A stretch of 64,000 nucleotides of DNA. Source: Thermoplasmata archaeon. Its GTDB lineage: Archaea > Thermoplasmatota > Thermoplasmata > RBG-16-68-12. Positions 23,197 to 49,627 of the stretch are shown piece by piece. The position numbers and the translations under genes were made by a program. Each line of letters begins with the position of its first letter. Within the stretch, counting starts at the first letter, position 1. Location: contig DASWDU010000012.1 in assembly GCA_036395115.1 (NCBI GenBank), positions 17,281-81,280 on the forward strand, read 5' to 3'. The notes beneath the pieces are model-generated. The model searched no databases and had not been told where the DNA came from. It saw only the letters and a list, made by a program, of their open reading frames with translations.

Positions 23197-26100
23197 TCAG
23201 AACTCCACGCCGAGTTGGTGGGCGAGGGCTCGGAGTTCCTCTTCTTTCTTACGCATCTTCTCTTCGCGGTCGAGGAGTTCCATCGCCTTCTTCTGGATAA
23301 TCTTCACACGGCTCTCGACATCTCTCCTCCAGTCTTCCAACGCGCTGCCGCTCGGGCCGCCCATCTTCTCCATCTCGGCGAGCTTCGCCCGCAGGCGCTC
23401 CACCTCGGCCGTGAGCTTTGACGTCTTCGCGTCGAGTTCCTGGCGATCCGACTGGACGACGCCCTCTTTGCCCTCCAAGATTTCCATCCGCGTATCGAGG
23501 CCTCGTTCGCGCTCCACAATCTTCCCTTCGCGGGCGCGCATTTTCTCCTCTTGGTCCAGCACTTCGAGGGCCTTCTTCTGAAGGAACCGGAGGTTCTTCG
23601 TGACCTCGGCCTGCATTCCGTCCGCTTGGGCGCGGAGCCGCTCCGCCTCTCGCTTGAGCGTCTCTGCCTCGTCTCGCGCGGCGAAGCTGACGCGGCCGTC
23701 CTCCTCGATCTGAGCGCGTTGCGACTCCAGCTCGCCCCGCGTTCGTTCGAGGGACCGCATCGCCTCTCCCAGCTCGGCATCCTTCGCCGAGAGGCTGACC
23801 GTTCGTTTCGAAAGTTCCGCCTCCGCCGCCCGGCCCGCATCCTCTCTCGCCCGGATTTCCCGCTCCTTCTTCGCAAGGTCTTCCATGAGATTGTCGGCCC
23901 GCTGCAGCTCCATGGTGAGAGTCTGCTCCTTCGTCGATAGCTGCGCACCTCTCGCGTCCAAGGCGCTCGCACGCGAGTCGATTTCCCTTTGCCGGGCTGC
24001 GAGCCGGTCCGATAGGCTGGTGACTTGAGCCGATTCCTGATCGAGCGCCGTCTTCCGCACTCGGATCTCCGCGGAGGCCGAGGCCAAATCGTGCTCCGCG
24101 ATCGTCATCTTCGTCTGCCTCGCCTCGAGTTCTTTGACGGCAGCATTGGTTTCCAGTTCCTTCGTTGCGAATTTTTGCGAGGCTTCGTTGACTTGGGCGA
24201 TCCGCGCCTGCAGGTCCCGTTCCGCCTTCTCCGCATCCGCGCGGCGCTTTTCGAGGATGTCTTGCTGCGCGACGAGCTCGTCGGCTTGCCGCTTCGCCGC
24301 CTTCTCGGCCTCCTGAGCGACGAAGATCCGGCGCTGAGCCTCGGCGACGAGCCGCTCCGCTTGCTGGGTCTGTTGGCCCGCTGCGTCCCGAGTCGCCTCG
24401 AGCTGTTTCAGTTCCTCGGCACGCTTGGCGGACCACACGGACCTCTCCGACTCGAAGGTCTGTCGGGCTCGGAGCAGATCGTCCTCACCCGCCCTCAGCT
24501 CCGCGATCCGAGCCTCCGACCGTTGCCAGGCCGCATCCGCCTCGCTCGCTTTCGACGCGGCGGTCTTCGCTTGCGACTCGAGTTTCGATCGCTCGAGATC
24601 GAGCTGGGCCATCGCGGCCCGCGCCGAGCGCTCGCGGCCGTCGATCTCTTCCATCCGCTTCGCCAATTCGGCCGCTCGCGCCTCAGCCGTCGCGTTCATC
24701 TGGCCCTGCTGCATCCTCAGGTCTCTTTGGAGCGTTTCCGATTCCCGCCGCTTCTCCGCGCCCTCCGATTCGAACCGCTTCACCATCTCGTCAAATTGGG
24801 AGGCGCGCTCGTTAATGTCCTGCTCCCGACGACTGGACAAACTCGCTCGTGCGGAGAGTTCGGTCGCCATCGTCTCGGCCTGGCGCTCCTTCGTGTCCAA
24901 GTCCCGGAGGCGGGCTTCCAAGTCCTGCTCCTCCGCTCGTAGGTCCACCTCCCGCGCGGAGAGGGCCCTCTCCCGAGCCGCCATTTCTTTCGCCTTCGCA
25001 CCGAGGGTTTCCTGGAGCATGCTCGAGTCCCGCTCGATCCGCTCGCGCTCGGCCTTGAGATCGGCTTCCTTCGCCGCGAGCGCGTGGCGGGTCGCTTCCG
25101 CCTCGGACCGGACCCGCGCGGCTTCGGCGTCGTAGCGGTCTTTCATATGCATCAGCTCGAGCTGGCGGGCCTCCAGCTGCTGGGTCTCCACCTGGACGTC
25201 GCCCCTCTCTCGCTGAAGTCGCTGCTCCACCTCGCGGAGCGTTTCCTCCGTGGACGCAATCCGAGTGTCCCGCTCGAGGAGGTCGCGGGCTTTCAGCTCC
25301 GCGGCGAGCGCGTTCTTCTGGATCTCGTTTTCCATCTGTTGCAGCCGCTGCGTTCGCGTCGTTTGCTCCTGTTCGAAGTCGGAGCGCCGCAGGCTCAACT
25401 CCCTCTCGAGGGTGTCCAAGGCCTCCGTCCGATCCGTGAGCTCGACCGCGTGGCGGGCCGTTTCTTCGCGCGCCGTGCGCTCGCGAGAGTCGAGTTCGAG
25501 GGTCCGCTGCTCAATTTCACGGAGGACCCCGTCGGCCTTGGCCTGTAGTTCCGAGGCTTGGCGAGTCGCCTCCGCGGTCGCCGTCTCACGACGACTCAGC
25601 TCCTCGTCCGTCTTCGTGGCCCGTTCGGTGGCCGTCCGGACCTTCTCCTCCAGGTCCTTGACGGTATCTTCTCGCTCCTCGACGCGCCGGACCCGATCCG
25701 CCCATGAGGATCGAAGGTCCGACATCTCCTTCTCGAACGTGTCCCCCTGCTCCTTCAGGAGCGCCTGTTGCGACTCGAGCGTCTTCTGCCACGTCCGGAG
25801 CTCCTCCGCGCGCCGGGCTTCTTCGTCCCGCAGGTGCGCGGCTTTCTCATCGAGCTCTCGGGTGAGCGTCGCGAGCTCGGCCTTCCGGACTTCCAGGTCG
25901 GCGCGCGACTTGTCGGTCCTCTCTTCCTCGATTTCAAGGGTTTCCTCCCGGGACGCGAGTTCGGACAGACGCCGGCCGCTCTCCTCCGCCTGGGAACGGA
26001 TCGCTTCCTCCTTCTCCCGGGTCGACTGCTCCCGCGATTCGAGCTCAATCTCCTTGGAGAGAATCGCCTGGTTCCTCTCGATGCGGCTCGTATCGAACGT

Positions 26101-29100
26101 CTCCTTGTCGTGGGCCAGCCGGAGTTGGGCTTCCCCGACGTCCTTCGCCTGGGCGTCGAGATCCACGCGCCTGCGTCGAAGTTCGTCCTCGTACTGAGCG
26201 GTCCGTTGCTGGAAGTCCTTTCGCTCGACGTCGAAGGCGCCGCGCGCCTCCTCGAGGACGACGCGATTCTCCGACAACGCCGTCTCGCGATCTTCGACGG
26301 ATTTCGCCCGCTCCGCGAGTTCCCGGGAGGCCGCATCGGTGATTGCCTTCAGGCTTTGGAGTTCCGACTCCTTCTCCGACACCGCGGCCTCGCGAGCCTC
26401 GAGTTGCGCCTCGACCGGCTGGATCCGCTCTTCTCGGCGGGCGAGGTCGTCCGCCTTCGCGGCCGCTTCCCTCTTGGCCGTCTCGACCTCGACGACTCGT
26501 TCGTCGAGGGTCCGTCGGAGCTCCAGGAGGTCTTTCTGGTCCGCTTCGAACCGCTGGCGGTCCTGCGTGAGTCCCGCCACGTCTCGGACGACGGCCGATT
26601 CCCGACGATCAAGGTCTTGGCGCGATGTCTCGAGGTTTGCCGACATTGCGCTCAATCGAACGGACTCCGCCTTCAACCGGGCATCCTCTTCCCCGACCGC
26701 CGCCTCCTTCTCTCGGAGGGTCGTCTCGGTCTTCGCGGCGCCGTCCTCCCGCGCCGACACGGCGTCGGACCTCGTGGCGACCGCGGCGGCCTGTGCCTGC
26801 GTCTCCGCGGAACGTCGATCCAGGGAGGTGCGCAGCTCTTCGGTCTGCCGCGACAGCTCGTCGACCGCCGTTCGTCCCTCCGCGAGCGTCTGTTCCCGTC
26901 GGATCAGATCTTGTTCTTTCGCCGCCAACGCGCCGGTGTCCGCGTCGATTTTCGTCTGGGCCAGTTGCACTTGGCGGAGCGTCGATTCGATCTCGACCGC
27001 CCGCGCTTCGCTGGCGCTTTGCCGTTCGTCGAGCGTCTGAGCGCGTGACGCGAGTTCCGCGTCCCGGGCCCGCGCTTCCTCGAGGCGCTGCTTCACGGCA
27101 TCCTCGAATTTGTCTTGGATTTGGACGAGCATCTCCCGAGCGAACTCGACCTGTTCCGAGGTCACGGGTCCGTACGCGAGCAGCACGACCGCGAGGGCGT
27201 CCCCGCGGACGGTCTGCCCGTGGTATTTCGTGACTTTGATCGGCTTCTCGACCGCGTCGAGCACGCCGGCCTGAACCGCCTGGTCGTACGTGACCTGGCA
27301 GCCGGGGTCCAGGGTGAATTCCCTGATCATTCGCCCTTTCTCGTCCACGAGGAAGGCCTTGGCGGGCTTCCAGCGCGCGCGCTGCGCAAACATTGCTACC
27401 ACCACGAAGACGCCGATCGGAGGCAGGGCGAGGATGTACGGCGCCTGCCACCATGCGGGGGTGATGTGGAAGGCTACCGACACCTCGCGATTCGCCGCCG
27501 ATGTCCCATCGGAAATTGTGACATTGAACCGCGCGCTCGTCCGGTCGGACGGGAACGCGAGCGTCAGGCGATGCCCGCTCACAGTGACGTACGGGCTGTC
27601 CGTGGTCACGGCAATCGAGGCGAGCGGCGTGTCGACGTCCGCGATATATGGATCGAGATCGAGGACGTAGGTGGTCCCCGCTTCGACGGAGAGTGCCGGG
27701 ACGGCGGCGAGGATCGGTGGGTCGTCCACGGAGCGCACGGCCACGGCGAAGGCGACTTCCGCGAAGCCGCCCGATGGGTCCGTCCCGCGGAGCCGCACCG
27801 CTTCCGATCCGAACCAGTTGGGGTCGGCCCAGAAGTCGAGGGTGCTGTTCGGGTTGACTCGGAAGTGCACGGATCGGTTTCCGAGGACGGTGAAGACGAG
27901 TGGGTCACCGTCGGGATCGTCGATGAACGCGGTCGCGATCGCCCCGAGGCCGTTCGGGGCGGTCGTGTCCTCGTCAAACTGCACTGACGGCGGCGTTGCG
28001 ACGACGCGGGGGGGATACGTGCCCGCCGCCACGATTGTGAGGAGCGTCCACGCCGTATCGATCCCATCGGAGACCCAGAGGGTCACGACGTACGTGCTCG
28101 CCGTCGCGTACGTGATCGTGAGGGACGGGTACGGACCGCCGAGCGCGCTGACGTTCGCGCTGTCGGCATCGGAGACCGTGAGACCGGAGAAAGGCGTGTC
28201 GAGGTCCGTCACGTAGAACGTCAGGTTGAGGCCGTACGGCGTCCCCGTGCGGACGTGAATTGTGGGGATGCCGGCGATCGTCGGAGGATTCGTCCCGATT
28301 CTGCGGCTTCCGACGCCGACCTTTTCAGCGGACCCCTGGAGATTCACGTCGTCAAAGGCCGTCGCGTGGATGGTGACCCCATTGATCGGGCTGCTCGGGG
28401 TCCAGACGTAGGAACCGTCGACCGTCAGGTCGGTCCCAATCACGCGCGAGGTCCCATCGAAATACGTGAAGTCGACGCGGACGACATCCGAGGAAGTCGC
28501 GTAGGTGAGCGTGAGTGTGCCGCTCGTCGCCTGGTTGTCCGTCACGGCGCCGAGCGTGATCGTCGGCGGCGTGTTGTCGACCTCGATCGGGGCGACGACC
28601 GTCGTATTCGAAATCGTCCGGTTGTTGGTTGCGACCGCGCGCAAGCTCCCTCCGACGAAGTTGAGCGGCGTCGTGTCCCACGGGAACGTTCCGTTCGGTG
28701 GCGCGGCCGTCCCGAGTGTCGTCCAGCCGCTCCCGCCGTTGTACTCGAATCGCACCGAGGCGGCGTCCGCGCTGAACGTGTAGGTGATGAGCACGGCGCC
28801 GGTGAGGTGGACCCCGTTCGTCGGCGAGGCGACGGCGACCCACGGGAGGACTCCGCTGACGACGTGGATCTGGGCGACGCCGGTCACCGCGCCCACGGAT
28901 GCGACGACCGTGCCGTTCGCCGGGGGCGGGCTTGCCGTGAAATTGACGTTCGGTCCCGTCGTCACGTTCAGCGAACCGACGCCGCCCGTCACGGCCCACG
29001 AGTATGCCAAGGCTGCGATTGGGTTGTCCCACGCATCGTACCCTTGGGCGGAGAGGTCTCGGCCGTCGAAGGGCAGGATCGTCACATCGTTTGGCGTCAC

Positions 29101-31464
29101 CGAGAGGTGGTCGAGGGGTCCGGGGGAGACGGCGACGAGCCCGCTCAGTCCGGAGGCGCTCCCGAAGCTCGCCCGGATTCGGATCGTCTCCGCCTTCGTG
29201 TACGTCTCGGTGCTGAGGGTCGTGGACCCGCCGGCGGTGATCGCGATCGTCGTGGTTCCCAGGGTGCCGCCGCCAGGGGTGACGCCGTCGGGCAGCCGCG
29301 CGTCGATCGCTACGGTGCCCGTCCACCAGGTCATCGTCGCGTTCCCGGCGTCCTTGGCCGTGATCGTGACCGTGAACGACGCGCCCGCCGTCGCGGTCGA
29401 CGAGGCCGTTACGAAGAAGCGGTCGAGCAGGTGGCGGTATCCGAGCCGCATCTCACTGATCGTCGGCGTGATCGTGGCGTTCGACGTCGACAGCGTCGCG
29501 CGGAAGCGGATCTTTCCGGTGGCGGTCGAGACGGACAGGAGGGACGCCGGTGGGGAGACGCTCGTCCAGCTGCCGCCCGAGTCCGTTGAATAGTCGTACG
29601 CGATCGTCTGGCCGTTCAGCGTGTGGACCACGGCGAAGGAGTCCCACTGGCTCAGGTCGGGCGGGGCGAAATCCTGCGTCGTGAGCGTGCCCGACGCGGG
29701 ATACAGGGACCAGGAGAGGTTGACGTCCCCGATGTTCGGCGTGTGGTCCGGGTACGTCACGGCGAAGGAGAGCCGGAATTCCGCGTACCGAGAGACGCCG
29801 GTCATCGCGGAGCCCGAGGGCGTCGCGTAGGGCGAGGACCAGCCGGTCCAGGTGCCATCGACCGGGCTCGTATTCCCGAGGCGCGTCGAGACCGCCGCGG
29901 TCGCATCGTTGGAAATCTGTACGCGGATGTAGTCGATGTCGATCGTGTGAGCGGTGCCGGAGAGGCCGTCGGCGACGAATAGCGCGAGCCGGACCTCGAG
30001 CGGGTACTCCATCCCCGGGGTGTACGTGTCCAGGGCCGTCCATGTGGACCCGTCCGAACTCGTGGATGCGGCGAAGCTCACCCCGGATCGGACGATCCGG
30101 AACCACGCCGGGATCGGGTTGCCACTCGCGACGTTCGCGCGGATCCCAGACACGGAGTCGGTGGTCGCCTTCGCCTGCCAGTTCACGGTCCCGGCGACGT
30201 TCACCTTCTGGGCCGCATACCAGTTTCGGTTGTTCAGCAGGACCATGAGGCCCGCTTTCTGGCCGCTCACGGTCGGATTGCCGCTGATCTTCGCGATGGC
30301 GGTGAAGTCGCCGACGACCTCATTCGCGAGGACGTTGCCCGTGAACGTCCCCGCGTCCAGGTCGACGCCCGTGCTGGAGACGATGTGCAGGCTCCCCGGC
30401 GTCGTCGTGCCCTCGTCGTACGCGGCGGGCGGGTTGGTCCAGGTCCATTTCGGATTGAGGCTCCCACCGTTGAATTCGTCCGACACGTACGAGCGTTCGG
30501 TGGCGTTCCACGAAATCGACTGCCAAGCGACGAGGGACCCCGGGCCGCCTACCTTCGAGATGTATTCTCCGGTCGCGCCGAGCACCCGGTAACGGATGTC
30601 GAGCTTCGGGCGAAGGGTCGGATCGGCCGCATAGTCAGAGGACCAGAACGTCTTGTCGAGATTTGTTCCGCCGGCCGAACCCAGGAGGATCATGCCGTTG
30701 TTCGGGACGCGGTTGCGGTACCACAGGTCCACGATTTGTGTGACGTTCCAGGTCTTCCATCCGAGGACCGCGTTGAGGCTCTGGACATCGATCGCGCGCG
30801 CGTCGTAGTCCCCGCCGGCGGTGGTCCAAGGCGTCCCTGTGAGCCGGTCGTTCCACGTCGCCTGGCCTTCGTTCCACGTCGGGGTGACGGCGTGGATTTC
30901 GGCCGAAGAAGGATTCGCCGCGGCGGCGGACATGTAGAGGACGAGCTTCGCGTCATCGATGACCGCGCCCGCTGGAATCGAAGCCATGCTGAACTGGAGG
31001 ATCGGCCGGCGGCTCGTAGAACCGCGGGCGTCGTAGACGAGGGTCGTGTCGCCGCCGTGGTTGAGGTTCACGGAGCCTCGGTCCAGGTAGGCGTCGAGGC
31101 CCGCCGCCGGGTCCGGCTGGATTGTGAGGAGCGTGGACGTCCCCGAAGTCGACGAGAGGACGATGTCGCCAGGGTACGTCGTGAAGTCGACATTCGTTGC
31201 ACCGTCGGGGCCAGCGAAATCGGCCGCGGTCGTGCTGTTCCACCACGAGACTTGCGGACGCAAGGTGGCCAGCCCACCGGCTACGCGGACGTTCGATGTC
31301 GTGTAGTCGGCCGGCGTCGAGAAGTTCCACACGACGTCCGATGTGCCGTCGAGATTGTCGGTTGACGTGGGATCGGCGGCCGCCGGGTGGACCGGAAGCA
31401 GCGTGATAGCGAGAGCGCTGACGACGAGGACCAAGGCTATCGTGACCGCGAACGGTCGGCGCAT
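23197..31464 (-). CDS. Giant 2,755-residue single-pass surface protein with a cytoplasmic coiled coil of about 1,300 residues
   Basis: A signal peptide (residues ~1-30) is followed by a DNRLRE-like domain (~115-290; TWNEGQATWNDRL, DLWYRNRVPNNGMILLGS), a DUF1349/concanavalin-like domain (~320-510), and several Ig-like and cadherin-like repeats (FDEDTTAPNG, SVDDPPIL). A transmembrane helix (~1343-1362) follows, then a ~90-residue globular head (FLVDEKGRMIREF...), and then an almost uninterrupted, highly charged heptad coiled coil to the C-terminus. Two copies of a motif (FLQKKALEVLDQEEKMR and IIQKKAMELLDREEKMR) close the tail. The topology is extracellular N, cytoplasmic C. It could tether the S-layer to a cytoplasmic scaffold. 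ATG 31464 has GGAGGG 9 nt upstream and a TATA element at 31529-31538. The function is inferred from architecture only. Confidence 0.85.
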   Translation of the reverse strand: MRRPFAVTIALVLVVSALAITLLPVHPAAADPTSTDNLDGTSDVVWNFSTPADYTTSNVRVAGGLATLRPQVSWWNSTTAADFAGPDGATNVDFTTYPGDIVLSSTSGTSTLLTIQPDPAAGLDAYLDRGSVNLNHGGDTTLVYDARGSTSRRPILQFSMASIPAGAVIDDAKLVLYMSAAAANPSSAEIHAVTPTWNEGQATWNDRLTGTPWTTAGGDYDARAIDVQSLNAVLGWKTWNVTQIVDLWYRNRVPNNGMILLGSAGGTNLDKTFWSSDYAADPTLRPKLDIRYRVLGATGEYISKVGGPGSLVAWQSISWNATERSYVSDEFNGGSLNPKWTWTNPPAAYDEGTTTPGSLHIVSSTGVDLDAGTFTGNVLANEVVGDFTAIAKISGNPTVSGQKAGLMVLLNNRNWYAAQKVNVAGTVNWQAKATTDSVSGIRANVASGNPIPAWFRIVRSGVSFAASTSSDGSTWTALDTYTPGMEYPLEVRLALFVADGLSGTAHTIDIDYIRVQISNDATAAVSTRLGNTSPVDGTWTGWSSPYATPSGSAMTGVSRYAEFRLSFAVTYPDHTPNIGDVNLSWSLYPASGTLTTQDFAPPDLSQWDSFAVVHTLNGQTIAYDYSTDSGGSWTSVSPPASLLSVSTATGKIRFRATLSTSNATITPTISEMRLGYRHLLDRFFVTASSTATAGASFTVTITAKDAGNATMTWWTGTVAIDARLPDGVTPGGGTLGTTTIAITAGGSTTLSTETYTKAETIRIRASFGSASGLSGLVAVSPGPLDHLSVTPNDVTILPFDGRDLSAQGYDAWDNPIAALAYSWAVTGGVGSLNVTTGPNVNFTASPPPANGTVVASVGAVTGVAQIHVVSGVLPWVAVASPTNGVHLTGAVLITYTFSADAASVRFEYNGGSGWTTLGTAAPPNGTFPWDTTPLNFVGGSLRAVATNNRTISNTTVVAPIEVDNTPPTITLGAVTDNQATSGTLTLTYATSSDVVRVDFTYFDGTSRVIGTDLTVDGSYVWTPSSPINGVTIHATAFDDVNLQGSAEKVGVGSRRIGTNPPTIAGIPTIHVRTGTPYGLNLTFYVTDLDTPFSGLTVSDADSANVSALGGPYPSLTITYATASTYVVTLWVSDGIDTAWTLLTIVAAGTYPPRVVATPPSVQFDEDTTAPNGLGAIATAFIDDPDGDPLVFTVLGNRSVHFRVNPNSTLDFWADPNWFGSEAVRLRGTDPSGGFAEVAFAVAVRSVDDPPILAAVPALSVEAGTTYVLDLDPYIADVDTPLASIAVTTDSPYVTVSGHRLTLAFPSDRTSARFNVTISDGTSAANREVSVAFHITPAWWQAPYILALPPIGVFVVVAMFAQRARWKPAKAFLVDEKGRMIREFTLDPGCQVTYDQAVQAGVLDAVEKPIKVTKYHGQTVRGDALAVVLLAYGPVTSEQVEFAREMLVQIQDKFEDAVKQRLEEARARDAELASRAQTLDERQSASEARAVEIESTLRQVQLAQTKIDADTGALAAKEQDLIRREQTLAEGRTAVDELSRQTEELRTSLDRRSAETQAQAAAVATRSDAVSAREDGAAKTETTLREKEAAVGEEDARLKAESVRLSAMSANLETSRQDLDRRESAVVRDVAGLTQDRQRFEADQKDLLELRRTLDERVVEVETAKREAAAKADDLARREERIQPVEAQLEAREAAVSEKESELQSLKAITDAASRELAERAKSVEDRETALSENRVVLEEARGAFDVERKDFQQRTAQYEDELRRRRVDLDAQAKDVGEAQLRLAHDKETFDTSRIERNQAILSKEIELESREQSTREKEEAIRSQAEESGRRLSELASREETLEIEEERTDKSRADLEVRKAELATLTRELDEKAAHLRDEEARRAEELRTWQKTLESQQALLKEQGDTFEKEMSDLRSSWADRVRRVEEREDTVKDLEEKVRTATERATKTDEELSRRETATAEATRQASELQAKADGVLREIEQRTLELDSRERTAREETARHAVELTDRTEALDTLERELSLRRSDFEQEQTTRTQRLQQMENEIQKNALAAELKARDLLERDTRIASTEETLREVEQRLQRERGDVQVETQQLEARQLELMHMKDRYDAEAARVRSEAEATRHALAAKEADLKAERERIERDSSMLQETLGAKAKEMAARERALSAREVDLRAEEQDLEARLRDLDTKERQAETMATELSARASLSSRREQDINERASQFDEMVKRFESEGAEKRRESETLQRDLRMQQGQMNATAEARAAELAKRMEEIDGRERSARAAMAQLDLERSKLESQAKTAASKASEADAAWQRSEARIAELRAGEDDLLRARQTFESERSVWSAKRAEELKQLEATRDAAGQQTQQAERLVAEAQRRIFVAQEAEKAAKRQADELVAQQDILEKRRADAEKAERDLQARIAQVNEASQKFATKELETNAAVKELEARQTKMTIAEHDLASASAEIRVRKTALDQESAQVTSLSDRLAARQREIDSRASALDARGAQLSTKEQTLTMELQRADNLMEDLAKKEREIRAREDAGRAAEAELSKRTVSLSAKDAELGEAMRSLERTRGELESQRAQIEEDGRVSFAARDEAETLKREAERLRAQADGMQAEVTKNLRFLQKKALEVLDQEEKMRAREGKIVERERGLDTRMEILEGKEGVVQSDRQELDAKTSKLTAEVERLRAKLAEMEKMGGPSGSALEDWRRDVESRVKIIQKKAMELLDREEKMRKKEEELRALAHQLGVEF

Positions 31465-31528
31465 TGCGGATACCCTCCGGTGAAGGCGAGGCCCTCCACC
31501 GAAAAACAGGATTCCAGGCCCGGGTGAC

Positions 31529-31538
31529 CTATATAAGA
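31529..31538 (-). promoter_or_regulatory. TATA-like box of the giant surface/coiled-coil gene
   Basis: Reads TCTTATATAG on the minus strand, about 68 bp before ATG 31464. It leaves a leader of about 40 nt that contains the GGAGGG ribosome binding site. Confidence 0.55.
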
Positions 31539-31581
31539 GCCGTTCGGTGGTTATCCGACCTGATTACATGGAGGGGAAGAG

Positions 31582-43001: not shown

Positions 43002-44561
43002 ATGGCGAGTGATGAGGGCGACGGGAAGGTGTCAAAGTCCGCGGACGATGTGCGGGACGAGTTCGAGGAGAAGATGGACCGCCTCCGTCGGCAGTACGAG
43101 CGGGACCTCCACTCCTTCCGTTACGAGATTGAGGAGCGGGAGTACCGGCTCAAGGCGTACGAGGACAAATTCAACAAGATCAAGCAACCGCCCCTCCTGT
43201 ACGCGTACGTCGTCCGCAAGGAGGGCCCGGATCTCGACGGCAACCAAGTCGTCGTCGCGCGGGCGACGGAACTCCTGAAGGTCTCGACCGGTCTGGTGGA
43301 CAAGGCGCAGCTCGGCGTCGGCCAATACGTCTGGGTGCATCCGCAGACGTACGCGATCGTCGAGGGCAGCGACGTTCACAACGAGGGCGTGATCGCGAAG
43401 GTCGCTGACATGATGGACGGCAAGCTCGTCATCTCGGTCGAGGGCGACATGGAGAAGCGGCTTATCGACTGTGACAAGGGCGTCTACAAGAAGCTGAAGC
43501 CCGGATTCCAGATCAGCGTGCTGCCTCCGACGATGGAGGTCCTCGATGTCCTCCCGAACCTGGAGGTCAAGTCGCTCCTGCTCGGCGAGAAGCCGAACGT
43601 CCAGTACACCGCGATCGGCGGATTGATGGAGGCGATCGAGCGGATCAAGGACGTCGTCGTCCTCCCGTACCAGGAGGCGAAGCTGTTCGCCCAAATCTCC
43701 CTGGAAGCGCCCCGCGGCATCCTGCTGTACGGTCCGCCGGGCTGCGGCAAGACCCTCCTCGTGAAGGCGATCGCGACGGAGAACGACATGACGTTCTTCA
43801 ACGTGAGCATCGCCGACGTCCTCTCGAAGTGGGTCGGAGAGAGCGAGCGGATCATCAAGGAGATCTTCCGGCAGGCGCACGAGAAGAAGCCGAGCATTGT
43901 CTTCTTCGACGAGATCGAGGCCCTCTTCACCGTGCGGGGCATGATGGATACGTCCGGCGTGCACAAGAACATCATCGCCCAGATCCTCAGCGAGATGGAC
44001 GGGCTCGTCGAGCTACACGACGTCTTCGTGATCGGCGCGACGAACCGCGCGGACCTGGTCGACCCAGCGCTCCTCCGGCCCGGCCGGTTCGACGAGATCA
44101 TCGAGATCCCGCGGCCCGACCGGAAGGCGGCCGAGGAGGTCCTCCAGATCTACCTGAACGAGGGCCTCCCCGTCGCCTCCTCGCTCGAGGAGCAGGCCGG
44201 CGGCCACAAAGAGGCGATCGAGGCGCTCCGCCGGTACGTCCTCGACGAGCTGTACGGCGAAAACAAATGGGTCAAGGTCAAACTCGACACCGAGGCGAAA
44301 GAGGCGATCAAGACCGTGAAGCGGAAAGACATCATCTCCGGCGCGATCATCGAGGCGATCGTGACGACCGCCAAGAAGAACTTCGTCAAGCGGATCATCT
44401 CACTCAAGAAGACGGACCGGAAGAAGGAGGGCCTCAGCCAGAAAGACTTCGAGATGGCGATCGACGAGGAGTGCAAGGAGCACGCGATCACGGAGATGTA
44501 CGTCTACGAGAAGCGCCAGCGGGAGGTCTTCCGGACCGGTGCGGACCCGATGGTCGGGTGA
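43002..44561 (+). CDS. arc: ARC/Mpa-type proteasomal AAA+ ATPase
   Basis: 519 residues. An N-terminal coiled coil (~12-60) is followed by two OB-like interdomains (~65-200) and one AAA+ module with Walker A GPPGCGKT (244-251), Walker B IVFFDE (299-304) and GATNRADLVDPALLRPGRFD (arginine-finger region). The tail segments YLNEGLPV, ISGAIIEAIVTTAKKNFVK resemble ARC/Mpa, not PAN; cysteine in Walker A is also ARC-like. ARC/Mpa rings recognise Pup through the coiled coil and feed substrates into the 20S proteasome. The C-terminus (ADPMVG) lacks both the HbYX motif of PAN and the GQYL of Mpa. ATG 43002 has GGAGATC 5-8 nt upstream, so the longer frame from 42966 is rejected. Confidence 0.88.
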   Translation: MASDEGDGKVSKSADDVRDEFEEKMDRLRRQYERDLHSFRYEIEEREYRLKAYEDKFNKIKQPPLLYAYVVRKEGPDLDGNQVVVARATELLKVSTGLVDKAQLGVGQYVWVHPQTYAIVEGSDVHNEGVIAKVADMMDGKLVISVEGDMEKRLIDCDKGVYKKLKPGFQISVLPPTMEVLDVLPNLEVKSLLLGEKPNVQYTAIGGLMEAIERIKDVVVLPYQEAKLFAQISLEAPRGILLYGPPGCGKTLLVKAIATENDMTFFNVSIADVLSKWVGESERIIKEIFRQAHEKKPSIVFFDEIEALFTVRGMMDTSGVHKNIIAQILSEMDGLVELHDVFVIGATNRADLVDPALLRPGRFDEIIEIPRPDRKAAEEVLQIYLNEGLPVASSLEEQAGGHKEAIEALRRYVLDELYGENKWVKVKLDTEAKEAIKTVKRKDIISGAIIEAIVTTAKKNFVKRIISLKKTDRKKEGLSQKDFEMAIDEECKEHAITEMYVYEKRQREVFRTGADPMVG

Positions 44562-44564
44562 CGC

Positions 44565-45860
44565 ATGAAGAAGATGGTCCAGGGGACCGAGCACGAGTAC
44601 ACGCTGTACTGCCGGAAGATGGGCACGATGGGGTTCGACCCCCACATGATGGCCCTCGACCTCCTGCGCGACTCGGACCTGCACCTCGCAGGCGAGTTCA
44701 TCACGAACGGATCGCGCGTCTACTACGACGTCGGCCACTTCGAGGTCAGCACGGCGGAGACGACGAACTTCCACGACGTGGTGACGTGGGAGAAGGCGGG
44801 CGAGAAGATCCTCGACTGGCTGCGTCGGATCATGGAGGAGAAGTACACCGGCGAGACGAAAATCCACGCGTTCAAGAACAACACCTCGCCCGACGGCACG
44901 TCGTACGGGTCGCACGAGAACTACTGCGTCTCGCGGGACGTCGCGTTCCCGGGGGCGTTCATTCGCGAGCTGGTGCCGCACCTCTCGACGCGGATCATCT
45001 ACACGGGCGCGGGAGACATCGTCCGAGGGAAGTACGTCCTCTCGCCGATGGCGTTCCTGACGTCCCAGGTGATCAGCGGGGAGACGATGCACGACACGGG
45101 CATCCTCAACACGAGGGACGAGCCCCACGCGGACGGCCGGCTGTGGCGCCGCCTGCACGTGATCGTGGGGGACGCCCTGATGAACGAAAGCGCGATCATG
45201 CTGCGGCACTTCACGACGTCGGCCGTGCTGCAGCTGATGGAGGCTCAGCGGCTCGACGACGTGCCCCGCATGAAAGATCCGATCCGGGACCTGTGGCACA
45301 ACGTCGAGATCCGGAACCCGGAGCAGTGGACCGTCGAGCTCGAGGACGGCAAGGTCGTGTCGCCGATCGACATCCAGCGGTACTACCTCGAAAAGATCGA
45401 GACGATTGTCGAGGACGACTGGGAGCACCGCGCCCTACGCATGTTCGAGGAGGTCCTCGACGACCTCGCGAACCGGCGGTCGAAAGATGCCGCGCGCCAC
45501 GTCGAATGGCTCGACCGCTACTACGCGATTCAGGAAGCCGCCGACAAGAAAGGTGGTCCCGACGTCGAGATGATGGCGTGCAAACAGTACTCCGAGATCG
45601 CCGCAGAACGCTCACTTTTCTACAAACGGCAGCGCGCGGGCCTCGTGGATCGCATCACGGACGACGAGGCCATCAAGCGGGCGATTTATGAACCGCCCGA
45701 AGACAGTCGTGCTCACTTGCGCCGAGAGCTGTGCGACACATTCAATATCGAGCTAATCGATTGGTCCATGCTGATCGTGAACGACGGAACGAGGCGGCGC
45801 ATCGATTTGCTCGATCCCTATGCCACCAAATTGGAGACACCGTATGCAACAGCAAGCTGA
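44565..45860 (+). CDS. PafA/Dop-family Pup ligase or depupylase homologue
   Basis: 431 residues, 3 nt after the ATPase gene. It has the carboxylate-amine ligase-like N-terminal motif GTEHEY (7-12), the catalytic-Asp region NGSRVYYDVGHFE (Asp55 aligning with the Asp of PafA LDVGSHPE), FKNNTSPDGTSYGSHENY (103-120), NTRDEPHADGRLWRRLHVIVGD in part (NTRDEPHAD, RRLHVIVGD) and the C-terminal EPPEDSRAHLRRE. PafA ligates Pup/UBact C-terminal Glu to lysines using ATP; Dop deamidates Pup or removes it. The long N-terminal Dop loop is absent (PafA-like), but GTExEY and SYGSHENY resemble Dop. Only one paralogue is present here, so its direction is undecided. Confidence 0.9.
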   Translation: MKKMVQGTEHEYTLYCRKMGTMGFDPHMMALDLLRDSDLHLAGEFITNGSRVYYDVGHFEVSTAETTNFHDVVTWEKAGEKILDWLRRIMEEKYTGETKIHAFKNNTSPDGTSYGSHENYCVSRDVAFPGAFIRELVPHLSTRIIYTGAGDIVRGKYVLSPMAFLTSQVISGETMHDTGILNTRDEPHADGRLWRRLHVIVGDALMNESAIMLRHFTTSAVLQLMEAQRLDDVPRMKDPIRDLWHNVEIRNPEQWTVELEDGKVVSPIDIQRYYLEKIETIVEDDWEHRALRMFEEVLDDLANRRSKDAARHVEWLDRYYAIQEAADKKGGPDVEMMACKQYSEIAAERSLFYKRQRAGLVDRITDDEAIKRAIYEPPEDSRAHLRRELCDTFNIELIDWSMLIVNDGTRRRIDLLDPYATKLETPYATAS

Positions 45861-46020
45861 GGACAGGCCGAAAAAGCGCAAGAAGCAGGAAAAGAAGCTA
45901 GAGTTTGAGGCTGGCAAGGTCTTCACTCCCGGCGAAGTGAAGGAAGAGGACTTCGAGCTCGATCTAGAATCGGCGAAATTCAGAGCTCAAAAAGGCCAAG
46001 GCGGAGATCGCCGAGCCTGA
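45844..46020 (+). CDS. Candidate Pup/UBact-like protein tag
   Basis: 58 residues overlapping the end of the ligase gene by 17 nt, as expected for a coupled operon. It is a small, highly charged, probably disordered protein (MQQQAEDRPKKRKKQEKKLE at the N-terminus). Its end, SAKFRAQKGQ, resembles Pup (VRAYVQKGGQ) and UBact (ARRYRQRSGE), which end exactly at Gly-Gln or Gly-Glu. Here six more residues (GGDRRA) follow before the stop. Either a protease trims it, or the 3' end was changed by the homing endonuclease insertion 57 nt downstream. There is no domain beyond this; identification rests on position, size, charge and the tail. Confidence 0.65.
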   Translation: MQQQAEDRPKKRKKQEKKLEFEAGKVFTPGEVKEEDFELDLESAKFRAQKGQGGDRRA

Positions 46021-46077: not shown

Positions 46078-47010
46078 GTGCTTTCAGCAGAATACCTCGC
46101 CGGACTACTGGACGGCGAAGGATCTCTTTCCTTGGCCAGACGATACCGTCGGGATCGGTCGACTGAGTATTCTGTGCGAGTCGCCGTCTATAATTGTGAC
46201 AGACTTGTTTTGGAAGCAGTCCAAAAAAGCTGGGGCGGACATCTCGCTTCTGTCGGGCCGAGGCATCCTGAGTGGCGAGCGGCGCATTCTCTGATTTGGA
46301 CGAACTCTGCCGCGGCAGGAGTGCTACGTGCGCTGGTGCCCCATTTGCGCGTCAAGGCGAGGCACGCTGCAGCGCTATTACGATTCCAAGCGCACGTCAA
46401 TGAGTCCGCGCGTTCTCGCGATTCGGCAGGCCGGTTACTGCCAATCACGCGACGTGAACAGAGGATTCGAGCTCGGCTTCATGCCCAACTCAAATCAATG
46501 AATCGCCGAGGAAGCCTGGTGCGATCCCGGGGGAAATCCCGGGCGAACTCGTCGGTCCATGAGGCCAGAATCTCAGGCGAGTATCTCGCCGGATTTGTCG
46601 ACGCCGAAGGGTCACTGATGATCGCGAAGTTCAGAGCCACAAGCCCTGGGAAGTGGTACTACAGGGCGAGAGCGTCCCTCGATAACGTGGACGGCCAAGT
46701 ACTTAGGGAAATTCAAAGGACCTACGGAGGAATTCTTTTCAGGCCACGCCGTAGAAAGTCAGGTTGGCGCGTGGTGTACAAGTTGGTCTGGACAGGGGAT
46801 CGGACGGAGCGGCTCCTGCGTCCGATTTTGCCTCACCTTCGCGTCAAGAGGAAACAGGGGGAACTTCTTCTTCGTTTTATTCAACACAGAAGCCAGACGA
46901 GCCCGCGCCGAATTGGAACTCGGGCTAGTCCCCTTCCGGATCGGGTTATCGCGGTGAGAGAGGGGTTCCATGCGAGAATGCGTGAATTGAACGCCAAAGG
47001 ACCACGGTAA
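46078..47010 (+). CDS. Tandem LAGLIDADG homing endonuclease
   Basis: About 310 residues starting GTG 46078, with two LAGLIDADG motifs: EYLAGLLDGEGSL at the N-terminus and EYLAGFVDAEGSL near residue 170. Each is followed by a matching half-domain (LRALVPHLRVKARH and LRPILPHLRVKRKQ). Such monomeric enzymes cut a long asymmetric site and spread their own gene. It is not inside a recognisable intein, and I could not identify intron boundaries. Base composition is more AT-rich than the flanks, consistent with recent arrival. It separates the tag gene from the M16 peptidase genes. Confidence 0.85.
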   Translation: MLSAEYLAGLLDGEGSLSLARRYRRDRSTEYSVRVAVYNCDRLVLEAVQKSWGGHLASVGPRHPEWRAAHSLIWTNSAAAGVLRALVPHLRVKARHAAALLRFQAHVNESARSRDSAGRLLPITRREQRIRARLHAQLKSMNRRGSLVRSRGKSRANSSVHEARISGEYLAGFVDAEGSLMIAKFRATSPGKWYYRARASLDNVDGQVLREIQRTYGGILFRPRRRKSGWRVVYKLVWTGDRTERLLRPILPHLRVKRKQGELLLRFIQHRSQTSPRRIGTRASPLPDRVIAVREGFHARMRELNAKGPR

Positions 47011-47090
47011 GGAGTCTGGTCGAAAACCTGGCAGGGCTCCCGACGGGCTCGGGCAACTTGATATCGCCCGCCCGCCTTGTCGCAATCCGG

Positions 47091-48371
47091 ATGGCCACCC
47101 ACGTCGAGTCTCTCGACAACGGGCTGAAAGTCATCCTGCGGCCCATCCCGGACACGAAGGCCCTGTCGACGTGGGTCGTCTACCACATCGGCTCGCGGAA
47201 CGAGGTCCCGGGCATGACCGGCTCGACGCACTGGGTCGAGCACATGCTCTTCAAGGGCGGCGGCAAGCTCGGGAAGGGCGACATCGACAAGCTCATCTCG
47301 CGCCTCGGCGGCAAGATGAACGCCTTCACCGACACGGACTACACGATGTACTTCGAGACGATCCCCGCGTCCGCGATGGACACCGCCCTGATGATCGAGT
47401 CGGAGCGGATGCGGAACGCCGCGTTCGATCCGAAGGAGGTCGAGGCCGAACGGACCGTCGTCATCAGCGAGCGGGAGGGCGCGGAGAACCAGCCTGAGTT
47501 CGCGGTCGAGGAGGAGCTGTGGGGCCTCGCGTTCCACGTGCATCCGTACCACTGGACGGCGATCGGCTACAAACAGGATCTCGCGACGCTCGATCGGGAG
47601 CCCCTGTACCGCCACTACCTCCGCTTCTACGCGCCGAACAACGCCTCCGTCATCCTCGTCGGCGGCTTCGATCCCGCGGTCGCGATGCAGCACGTCCGCG
47701 AGGCGTTCGCGCCGCTCCGCCCGGAGGCCCCGCCGGACCCGATGCGTCTCGTCGAGCCGGAACAGAGGGGCGAGCGGCGCAGCGACATCGTGCGGCCGGG
47801 CCCCGCCGACCTTCTGTCCGCCGGGTGGCACATTCCGGCGGCGGGCCACGAGGACACCCCCGCGTTGATCGTCCTCTCGACGGTCCTCGGCGGCTGGCGG
47901 GGGCTCGTGCCCTTTGCCGCGGGGGACTGGCGGCCGCGCTCGAATCGGCTCTATCGGGCGCTCGTCGATTCGAAGCTCGCGACGGACGTCGGGGTGAGGC
48001 AGGAGATCAAGGTCGATCCGTCGCTCGTCATCGTGAACGTCACCCTCGCGGACGGCGCATCGCTCGACCACGTCGAGGAGGTTCTCGACCGGGAAGTCGA
48101 ACGGCTCAAGAAGGGGATCCCGGCGAAGTCGGAGCTGGACCGCGCGAAGCAACAGGTCCGGGCGTGGGCGCGGTACGAGCAGGACGGCGTCACCTTCCAG
48201 GGGATCCTGCTGAGCGTCTCGGAGGGGCTCGGCGCGTGGGACTTCGGCGAGTCGCTGCTCGCGAAGGCGGAGCGCGTCCGGGGGGAACAGGTCCGCGACG
48301 TCGCGAGGCGCTACCTCGTCGACGCGCATCGGACCCTCGTGCGGTTCCATGCGCAGGAGGCCGCCGCGTGA
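47091..48371 (+). CDS. M16-family zinc peptidase (catalytic subunit)
   Basis: 426 residues with the inverted zinc motif HWVEH (HxxEH, residues 47-51) and the distal Glu in ISEREGAEN. It has the usual two halves of an M16B protein. The pair with the next gene parallels the active/inactive heterodimers of bacterial M16B and mitochondrial processing peptidases, which degrade unfolded peptides. ATG 47091 is about 29 bp after a TATA-like TTGATATC near 47058-47065, indicating its own promoter separate from the pup-like operon. Confidence 0.9.
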   Translation: MATHVESLDNGLKVILRPIPDTKALSTWVVYHIGSRNEVPGMTGSTHWVEHMLFKGGGKLGKGDIDKLISRLGGKMNAFTDTDYTMYFETIPASAMDTALMIESERMRNAAFDPKEVEAERTVVISEREGAENQPEFAVEEELWGLAFHVHPYHWTAIGYKQDLATLDREPLYRHYLRFYAPNNASVILVGGFDPAVAMQHVREAFAPLRPEAPPDPMRLVEPEQRGERRSDIVRPGPADLLSAGWHIPAAGHEDTPALIVLSTVLGGWRGLVPFAAGDWRPRSNRLYRALVDSKLATDVGVRQEIKVDPSLVIVNVTLADGASLDHVEEVLDREVERLKKGIPAKSELDRAKQQVRAWARYEQDGVTFQGILLSVSEGLGAWDFGESLLAKAERVRGEQVRDVARRYLVDAHRTLVRFHAQEAAA

Positions 48372-49627
48372 ACCTCCCGGACCGGACGGTCCTCGGGAAC
48401 GGGGCGGTGCTCGTCTCGAGCGCCTTGCCTTCGAACCCGTTCGTCGCGTTCCGGGGGAGCGTGCCCGCCGGCGTGGCGGCGGAGGGCGACGACCACGGTG
48501 TGGCGGAGTTCACGGCGCGGCTCCTGTTGAGTGGCACGCGCCGCATGAGCGCGGCGAAGCTCTCGGACCGGCTCGAAGGGATCGGCGCGACGCTCGAGTT
48601 CCGGAACGGGGAGGAGCTCCTCTCCTTCCAGGGGCGCTGCACGCGGGACACGACGGCCGAAACGATCCGGATCCTCGTCGAGTGCCTCGCGCGGCCCGCG
48701 TTCCCGGCCCGGGAGATCGACCGCGTGCGGAAGGAGCTCGAGAACGATGTTCGCATCGAGGCGGACGACACACGCAGCCGGGCGATGCGGGAGCTCGCTC
48801 GCAGCGTCTTCCCGAAGGACCATCCGTACGGCCGCGACCCGAAAGGGAATGCGGAGCGCATCCGCCGCATCCGTCGTTCCGACATCGTCGCGTTCCACGC
48901 GTCCCACGTCGGGCCGGAGGGGCTCATCCTCGCGGTGACCGGGGACGTCGACCGCACGCTGATCGACGAGGCGATCGCCGCCCCCCTGTCCCGTCTCGAG
49001 GGGGACAACGTCGGCGCGCCGCGGATCCCGCCGCCCCCCGCCCACAAGCCGCGGAACGTGCCGATCCCGATGCCCCACAAGACCCAGGTCGACGTCGCAA
49101 TCGGCGCGCCCGCCGTGCCTCGATCCCACGACGACTATGATGCGCTCAACCTGGCGAACCTGCTCTTCGGACGGATCGGGTTGTACGGCCGCCTCGGCCG
49201 GAACCTCCGGGACGAGCAGGGCCTCGCGTACTACGCGTTCACGAGCCTCGACGCGCGGACGGCGGGAGGGATGTGGTCGATTTCCGCGGGCGTCAACCCC
49301 GCGAACCTGACAAAGGCCGTCGCCTCGATCCGGGCGGAGATGGAACGGTTGCGGCAGGAGCCCTTCACCCCGGACGAGGTTCGGGACGGGCGGGACAACG
49401 AGGTCGGCTCGCTCATCGTCTCGCTGGAGCGGAACGCGGAGGTCGCGGGGGAGCTCCACCGGATGGAGTACTTCGGCCTCGGGATGGATTACCTCGAGCG
49501 GTTCCCGGACATCGTGCAAGGCCTGTCGGACGGACGCGTCCGGGAGGTGGCCCAGAAGTACTTCGTGCCGTCCGCGAGCTCGATCGCCGTGGCGGGGCCA
49601 ATCGCCCGCGCCCGCGTCTCCCTGTGA
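48368..49627 (+). CDS. M16-family peptidase homologue lacking zinc ligands (partner subunit)
   Basis: 419 residues starting at GTG 48368, overlapping the previous stop (GTGA). It has an M16 fold (LSGTRRMSAAKLSDRLEGIGA; FGRIGLYGRLGRNLRDEQGLAY), including the R/Y substrate-binding segment near the C-terminus. The zinc motif is degenerate (DDHGVAEFTARLL, no HxxEH), so it should be a non-catalytic partner that completes the cavity of the upstream active subunit. Confidence 0.9.
   Translation: MNLPDRTVLGNGAVLVSSALPSNPFVAFRGSVPAGVAAEGDDHGVAEFTARLLLSGTRRMSAAKLSDRLEGIGATLEFRNGEELLSFQGRCTRDTTAETIRILVECLARPAFPAREIDRVRKELENDVRIEADDTRSRAMRELARSVFPKDHPYGRDPKGNAERIRRIRRSDIVAFHASHVGPEGLILAVTGDVDRTLIDEAIAAPLSRLEGDNVGAPRIPPPPAHKPRNVPIPMPHKTQVDVAIGAPAVPRSHDDYDALNLANLLFGRIGLYGRLGRNLRDEQGLAYYAFTSLDARTAGGMWSISAGVNPANLTKAVASIRAEMERLRQEPFTPDEVRDGRDNEVGSLIVSLERNAEVAGELHRMEYFGLGMDYLERFPDIVQGLSDGRVREVAQKYFVPSASSIAVAGPIARARVSL

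Follow-up and report, generated by a model that had tools for sequence, protein, structure and literature searches.

An archaeal operon encoding an ARC-type ATPase, a single PafA/Dop-family enzyme and a candidate tag with a non-terminal Gln/Glu site

A Pup-like tag together with a PafA-family enzyme is found in non-actinobacteria as UBact of Nitrospirae and others, and the ATPase ARC can act without a proteasome, as in actinobacteria that lost theirs. UBact is named in PMC11354881. According to PMC8223512, GQYL is a docking motif, and some actinobacterial loci of the Pup-proteasome system lack proteasome subunit genes. Pups are described as all ending in G[EQ], which makes them fit for conjugation either directly, as Glu, or once the Gln has been deamidated (PMC2588565), and PupGlu is reported to be encoded by many species (PMC12288473). 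The origin of the full pathway has been placed in Actinobacteria, and PafA and Dop have been argued to stem from a single ancestor, which was more probably a ligase with promiscuous Dop-like activity (PMC7947786). Single-copy PafA/Dop homologues are mentioned for Planctomycetes in PMC7947786; PMC2588565 mentions them for Rhodopirellula and Plesiocystis. Our literature searches, made among open-licence papers, found such systems described only in bacteria and no paper on an archaeal pupylation system. Here we describe a locus from a Thermoplasmata archaeon (assembly GCA_036395115.1) that codes for an ARC-type ATPase, an enzyme of the PafA/Dop family and a small tag candidate. It lies in the stretch of 64,000 nucleotides that we analyzed, hereafter the window (contig DASWDU010000012.1, positions 17,281 to 81,280 of the forward strand).

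The three genes are found on the + strand at positions 43002-46020 of the window, with operon spacing. The first (43002..44561) codes for an ARC-family AAA+ ATPase of 519 residues, with an N-terminal helix, a predicted tandem OB (oligonucleotide/oligosaccharide-binding) region and one AAA module. After a 3-nt gap follows the gene of a single enzyme of the Pup_ligase family, i.e., the family of PafA and Dop (44565..45860; 431 residues), which overlaps by 17 nt with that of the tag candidate (45844..46020; 58 residues from the ATG at 45844). The coordinates and spacings were exact in a preliminary description of the locus, which had presented it as a complete pupylation module. We retain from the latter claim the ATPase, the enzyme and the tag-like protein but not the completeness, as there is one enzyme instead of a PafA and Dop pair and the ATPase has no docking end. 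The operon probably mediates pupylation-type tagging by a single enzyme that would act on a Gln/Glu side chain of the tag; the ARC ring would serve both as receptor and as unfoldase. The data at hand establish the operon and its conservation, the fold, catalytic residues and phylogeny, the switching between Gln and Glu in the tag and the tail behind that site, the replacement of Arg201 of PafA by Thr, the absence of a docking motif, and the presence of 20S proteasome and PAN genes elsewhere in the genome.

The enzyme gene is a recurrent feature of the lineage. A scan with the Pup_ligase profile PF03136 of 100 genomes, i.e., the host genome (2.40 Mb in 50 contigs; completeness 98.45%, contamination 2.89%) and 99 relatives, was positive for 23: the host, 16 of the 18 other genomes of its genus (some with gene fragments only), 3/3 further members of the family and 3/15 further genomes of the order. 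It was negative for the remaining 63 genomes of the class. Among 389 genomes of the phylum, nine were positive including the host, the other eight being outside the class. A scan of named genomes yielded 22 enzyme loci, one of them a short fragment, all in records titled as archaeal metagenome-assembled genomes (MAGs). They include the isolates EA_*, RBG_16_67_27, RBG_19FT_COMBO_69_17 and nzgw66, and one record is titled Halobacteriales. Since the gene recurs in this manner, and since the archaeal enzymes form one side of a branch in the enzyme tree, contaminating or misjoined bacterial DNA, which the preliminary description had named as a possible refutation, was discarded as an explanation; an assembly misjoin at the locus is very unlikely. 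In public records of Thermoplasmata MAGs, the enzyme is already labelled 'proteasome accessory factor PafA2 family protein', so it is known to annotation pipelines, and the tag is a hypothetical protein.

Gene order was also conserved. The order ATPase-enzyme-tag was found in the window and, by text pattern, in 14 of 20 fetched relatives (one tag being cut by a contig end), with a fifteenth recognized by eye; the contigs of the other five stop before the ATPase or the tag. Among the 21 named loci L051-L071, the tag adjoins the enzyme in 19 by one rule and in L070 by another; in L065 the contig stops within the tag gene. Two clades can be distinguished. Clade 1 comprises the window's order and a distant member, nzgw66 (G122), with the three genes kept together. 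Clade 2, outside the class, comprises genomes G100, G111, G119, G127, G132 and G137 (split gene), and its named records include Thermoplasmatales archaeon SW_10_69_26. In a further genome, G140, the enzyme is represented by a fragment where the contig ends. The tag was detected in seven of the eight module genomes outside the class, and in four genomes of clade 2 its distance to the enzyme is at most approximately 0.2 kb. The clade 2 ATPase, where seen (G100, G111, G119 and G137), is separated from the enzyme by approximately 1 to 5 kb; a stretch of 16 kb around the enzyme of G127 showed none.

Assignment of the enzyme to the PafA/Dop family, already proposed from the sequence of the window, was borne out by a highly significant match to PF03136 (297.6 bits, E 2.3e-88; cut-off 25). 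Among solved chains, it matched Dop with E 1.8e-53 and PafA with E 3.2e-42. The enzyme and the ATPase are both under the curated NCBIfam equivalog cut-offs (enzyme, 252.1 versus 551.3 for PafA and 249.3 versus 492.3 for Dop; ATPase, 351.5 bits versus 504.75 for pup_AAA), and hence neither is a textbook member. The enzyme tree, whose midpoint root serves for drawing only, is split three ways into archaea (100/100), Dop (99/99) and PafA (98/96), the archaeal enzymes being excluded from both the PafA branch (3 rows) and the Dop branch (4 rows). By this sequence comparison, the archaeal enzyme is a third lineage beside the sampled PafA and Dop rows. Planctomycete, Nitrospirae and UBact-type enzymes lie outside the comparison, and the archaeal branch may sit beside one of them.

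For residue comparisons, we used 143 archaeal rows (130 distinct sequences) and 7 bacterial rows, as well as a 59-row alignment of the window's enzyme with 58 of the 120 listed enzymes; the fused protein P0221 was left out of both. The catalytic Asp55 (44727..44729, + strand) corresponds to D64 of CgPafA and D94 of AcelDop and is Asp in 142 of the 143 archaeal rows and Glu in one. Gly7, Glu9, His58, Glu60 and Arg195 are kept in all 143, and Glu11, His117 and His198 are invariant in the 59-row alignment. The GhExE motif is present, with Thr or Ser rather than a hydrophobic residue before the first Glu. Arg201 of PafA forms a salt bridge with the C-terminus of Pup, as described in PMC8599861. 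At the place of CgPafA Arg201, the archaeal enzyme has Thr178 (45096..45098, + strand): Thr occupies this position in 143/143 archaeal rows (130/130 distinct sequences) and Arg in 7/7 bacterial rows. The residue behind it is Gly in archaea and Pro or Gly in bacteria. At loci L048 and L067, from the same genome (G020), the last residues encoded by the enzyme gene differ from those in relatives, as if the frame had changed.

The remainder of the active site is a mosaic, which brings in an alternative, namely that the enzyme acts solely as a Dop-like amidohydrolase or deamidase, without any conjugation, and that the small protein regulates it or serves the ATPase as an adaptor. The length of the D..E motif, Ser62 (137/143) and Glu173 (111/143) are indeed Dop-like, and the alpha-loop is that of neither PafA nor Dop. 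However, Val56, Gly57, Ser171 and Asp399 are PafA-like in all 143 archaeal rows, and there is no insertion corresponding to the Dop-loop in the 141 rows of 143 that could be measured, with a spacing of 44 compared with 46-47 in three PafAs and 127 in one Dop. A lone hydrolase would moreover oppose no ligase. We therefore regard this alternative as unlikely.

We then considered the tag candidate. Searches retrieved 337 homologues at E <= 1e-3 with a clade 1 profile and 101 with a clade 2 profile. The median pN/pS (ratio of nonsynonymous to synonymous polymorphism) is 0.107, ranging from 0 to 0.43 over 91 pairs from 14 equal-length tags; thus, the tag is under purifying selection. Together with its constant place in relatives, these data indicate that it is a real gene. 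The counts below refer to the best 120 of the 337 clade 1 tags and to all 101 tags of clade 2. In clade 1, the protein ends with KG[Q/E]GGDRR[A/S/T], and in clade 2 with KKGQAGTR followed by a variable end. The predicted reactive residue in the window is Gln52 of KG[Q/E] (45997..45999, + strand), which alternates with Glu in homologues and is followed by the C-terminal tail GGDRRA (46000..46017, + strand).

Of the best 120 clade 1 tags, 119 match the pattern, with Gln in 62, Glu in 56 and Val in one at that site, between near-invariant neighbors; the remaining tag has TGE in place of KGE. All 95 pattern-matched clade 2 tags have Gln, and the other six were read by eye as KGQAG[TS]R. The state of the site was mapped onto the enzyme tree for 20 of 22 loci (the window and L051-L071, of which L065 and L070 were unpaired by rule), all from clade 1 and with nzgw66 included. 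For these 20 pairs (12 Glu, 8 Gln), at least eight changes are needed, five of which are required by branches with good support, and the states cluster no more than shuffled labels do (500/500 shuffles as low). For example, the window and L051 have enzymes that are 97% identical and tags with Gln and Glu, respectively. The near-exclusive use of Gln and Glu, their free switching and the invariance of the neighbors are as predicted for a reactive Gln/Glu that tolerates deamidation.

The preliminary description had noted a Pup-like tail, which holds as far as KGQ; six residues follow, so that the protein has no G[EQ] end, and PF05639, the profile of Pup, does not detect it. GGDRR is present in 118 of the 119 matched clade 1 tags, and the tail is exactly six residues long in 114 of them. 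Only its first four or five residues are conserved, and tail lengths in clade 2 vary from 6 to 37. No match to PF05639 over the cut-off was obtained in nine module genomes; weak matches in five of them were all away from the tag. Among 14 control genomes, one gave a match over the cut-off and four gave a signal, Corynebacterium glutamicum among them. The letters in common with Pup (QKG and Q/E) are too few to establish homology. Judged by sequence, the tag is thus not classed as a Pup, though the system resembles pupylation in its presumed working.

The tail might alternatively be a propeptide. In that case, an unlinked peptidase would cut after KG[Q/E] and expose a C-terminal G[Q/E], after which the one enzyme would act as in bacteria. 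Such a cut would recreate the G[EQ] end described for Pups (PMC2588565), and the pattern of conservation, confined to the start of the tail and lost beyond it in clade 2, is as at a cleavage site. Of 14 genus rows, 13 have an open reading frame (ORF) with an M16 motif downstream of the tag, and the contig of the fourteenth ends early; the motif was found in none of the 14 rows from outside the genus (some with short flanks, and including two pairs from the same genome). The M16 peptidase (HxxEH) is therefore a weak candidate for the processing enzyme. Furthermore, each of the 130 distinct archaeal enzymes has Thr at the position of the PafA arginine that contacts the free C-terminus. Removal of the tail as a propeptide is a real possibility, in our view only slightly less likely than its retention.

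In clade 1, KG[Q/E]GG stands before the last four residues, and the host genome carries two ThiF/E1-like and three JAB-like genes. The tag might thus be cut after Gly-Gly (or Ala-Gly) and conjugated by an E1-like enzyme in the manner of SAMP/Urm1. This is very improbable, as the partner in the operon is a Pup_ligase-family enzyme, an E1 has no use for the alternation of Gln and Glu, Ala-Gly is found in clade 2, and the tag matches no beta-grasp family.

We turned to the ATPase. It scored 351.5 bits with TIGR03689, the model of the Pup-system ATPase, and 269.7 with the best PAN model. In a tree of 8 module ATPases, 2 bacterial ARCs, 8 PANs and 12 Cdc48 domains, the module ATPases group with the ARCs (100/99), outside PAN and Cdc48, which excludes the protein as a member of either of the latter and agrees with the ARC-type assignment in the preliminary description. 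By raw E value, the closest solved structures are Cdc48/VCP, which we attribute to the summing of their two AAA modules; Mpa chains match over a longer stretch. Walker A, GPPGCGKT (residues 244-251; 43731..43754, + strand), is invariant in 16/16 aligned rows. Two successive matches to the coiled-coil/OB profile of PAN cover 43095..44156 on the + strand (profile positions 3-90 at 43095-43364, a weak match of 18.8 bits, and 37-298 at 43389-44156), and the OB part is similarly doubled in the ATPases of G100, G119 and G026. Tandem OB domains, in the ARC/Mpa layout, are predicted on this basis. OB1 and OB2 are defined by profile matches, since a search with the N-terminal 199 residues found no Mpa chain. 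An AlphaFold model from 16 rows (mean predicted local distance difference test [pLDDT] score, 56.6) was used for the N-terminal helix only; the helix spans residues 14-59 in this low-confidence model and is likely a coiled coil.

The protein ends with GADPMVG (44538..44558, + strand), without an HbYX or GQYL docking motif. Neither motif terminates any of the eight module ATPases, which end with DPMVG (five) or VEVM (three). As controls, GQYL was found in both bacterial ARCs and Hb-[YF]-X in all eight PANs, with Tyr in the host's own PAN and Phe in the other seven. By its sequence grouping and predicted tandem OB layout, the module ATPase is thus of the ARC type in the respects examined, docking excepted.

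The host genome has four 20S-type genes (PF00227) outside the operon, where the preliminary description had proposed to look for them, and a PAN that ends with MYA. From their sequences, we read the four as two alpha and two beta subunits. With PAN, 20S, ThiF and JAB genes present, the module appears to have been added to what archaea usually carry. All seven other module genomes tested carry 20S-type genes. Like the host, G008 and G012 (the other two genus genomes tested) have four PF00227 genes with an adjacent pair, whereas G024, G026, G100 and G119 have two each and G111 has three. A second adjacent pair in the host (L004 and L005, contig C44 of G000) was considered as linked to the module and rejected, as other module genomes have two or three PF00227 genes.

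These data can be combined in a model of one-enzyme pupylation. When the site is Gln, its deamidation to Glu by the enzyme, or by a further partner, would come first. The enzyme would then use ATP to form a gamma-glutamyl phosphate on the Glu of the tag, to be attacked by a lysine of the target, and the side chain of KG[Q/E] would thereby be joined to target lysines. The conserved tail would be retained on the tag, the side chain reacting from its internal position. An internal reactive residue would leave no free C-terminus to be bound, so that the gain of a tail and the loss of Arg201 would fit each other. That the tail stays on and an internal Gln/Glu reacts is a serious possibility, which we put forward tentatively. 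The ARC ring would take hold of the tagged protein through its coiled coil and unfold it. In the absence of a 20S docking end, the ring might work alone or dock in a way that has not been described. Conjugation, deamidation, internal attack and recognition of the tag by the ATPase are what we infer from these features. The model as a whole, in which a third branch of PafA/Dop deamidates, ligates and perhaps unligates through an internal residue and the ARC ring is undocked from 20S, has in our view a little less than an even chance of being right.

Several observations weigh against pupylation-type tagging by this operon. The alpha-loop, which discriminates PafA from Dop, resembles neither, and residues 170-177 are predicted at pLDDT under 50; for both reasons, ligase and hydrolase cannot be told apart from the sequence. 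The predicted reactive residue is not terminal, as all 120 clade 1 and 101 clade 2 tags examined continue past the site. The tag has no detectable similarity to PF05639 and no convincing match to a Pfam family. A single base change turns Gln into Glu, and mutational ease thus explains part of the switching, although other residues are nearly absent. Linkage is not universal, the tag being approximately 1.8 kb from the enzyme in G111 and approximately 129 kb in G137, and no tag was found in G140, a genome that is 75% complete. Bacterial references for the enzyme are few (3 PafA and 4 Dop), being actinobacterial or from one phage-labelled record, two rows of which have an odd letter make-up. The enzyme tree was flagged for the meeting of long branches, as was the ATPase tree, in which ARC is represented by two rows only.

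Compared with the actinobacterial Pup-proteasome system, the archaeal locus has in common the family and fold of the enzyme, the family of the ATPase, a small charged tag mostly beside the enzyme and alternation of Gln and Glu at a residue preceded by Gly. It differs by its single enzyme outside the PafA and Dop rows, the conserved tail after the Gln/Glu, the loss of Arg201, an ATPase without GQYL, the lack of 20S genes in the operon and a tag below detection by PF05639. With the single-copy systems of the Planctomycetes type it shares the use of one enzyme instead of two and a locus unlinked to 20S genes. The Pups of those systems end with G[EQ], however, and their ligases are described with four inserted transmembrane segments (PMC2588565), an insert that the archaeal enzyme of 431 residues lacks; this group was compared by description only. 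SAMP/Urm1 with PAN-20S is likewise archaeal, and the same genome has E1-like, JAB-like, PAN and 20S genes, but the enzyme family and the tag are different and the module ATPase is not PAN.

Given the Planctomycetes, a single enzyme alone is not unheard of (PMC7947786, PMC2588565). As far as our searches go, what appears to be new is the occurrence in archaea, an enzyme lineage separate from the PafA and Dop rows compared, and a non-terminal Gln/Glu with a conserved tail, matched by the loss of Arg201. A one-enzyme archaeal version bears on the question of where pupylation arose, and a natural third lineage that mixes PafA and Dop residues offers a bench test of the view that both derive from one ancestral enzyme. 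If an internal residue does react, the chemistry of protein modifiers would be wider and include a new linkage geometry. Archaea would gain a second tag-and-unfold route beside SAMP, PAN and 20S.

Some further observations were made. In G137, the tag gene is located at 129867-130046 of contig C15, so the genes of the module need not stay together. A human faecal record under the label Bacteriophage sp. (L093; MT835496.1, 35724-53058) has two Pup_ligase-family genes, a Pup-like ORF ending with KGGQ, and a gene that resembles ARC for part of its length before the similarity stops; the contig is apparently bacterial and mislabelled. In the window, the tag gene is immediately followed by a LAGLIDADG-type ORF (46078-47010; PF00961, E 1.4e-7). 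The pattern is present at that place in L051-L054, L056, L057, L059, L063 and L064 and was not found in L055, L058, L060-L062 and L071; as many relatives have it but not all, the ORF has been gained or lost at this spot. The M16 peptidase gene (47058-48371; PF00675 and PF05193) lies behind this homing-endonuclease-like gene and is followed by a similar-looking ORF that ends at 49627. Elsewhere in the window, the minus strand holds an open frame of approximately 2788 codons at 23200-31563.

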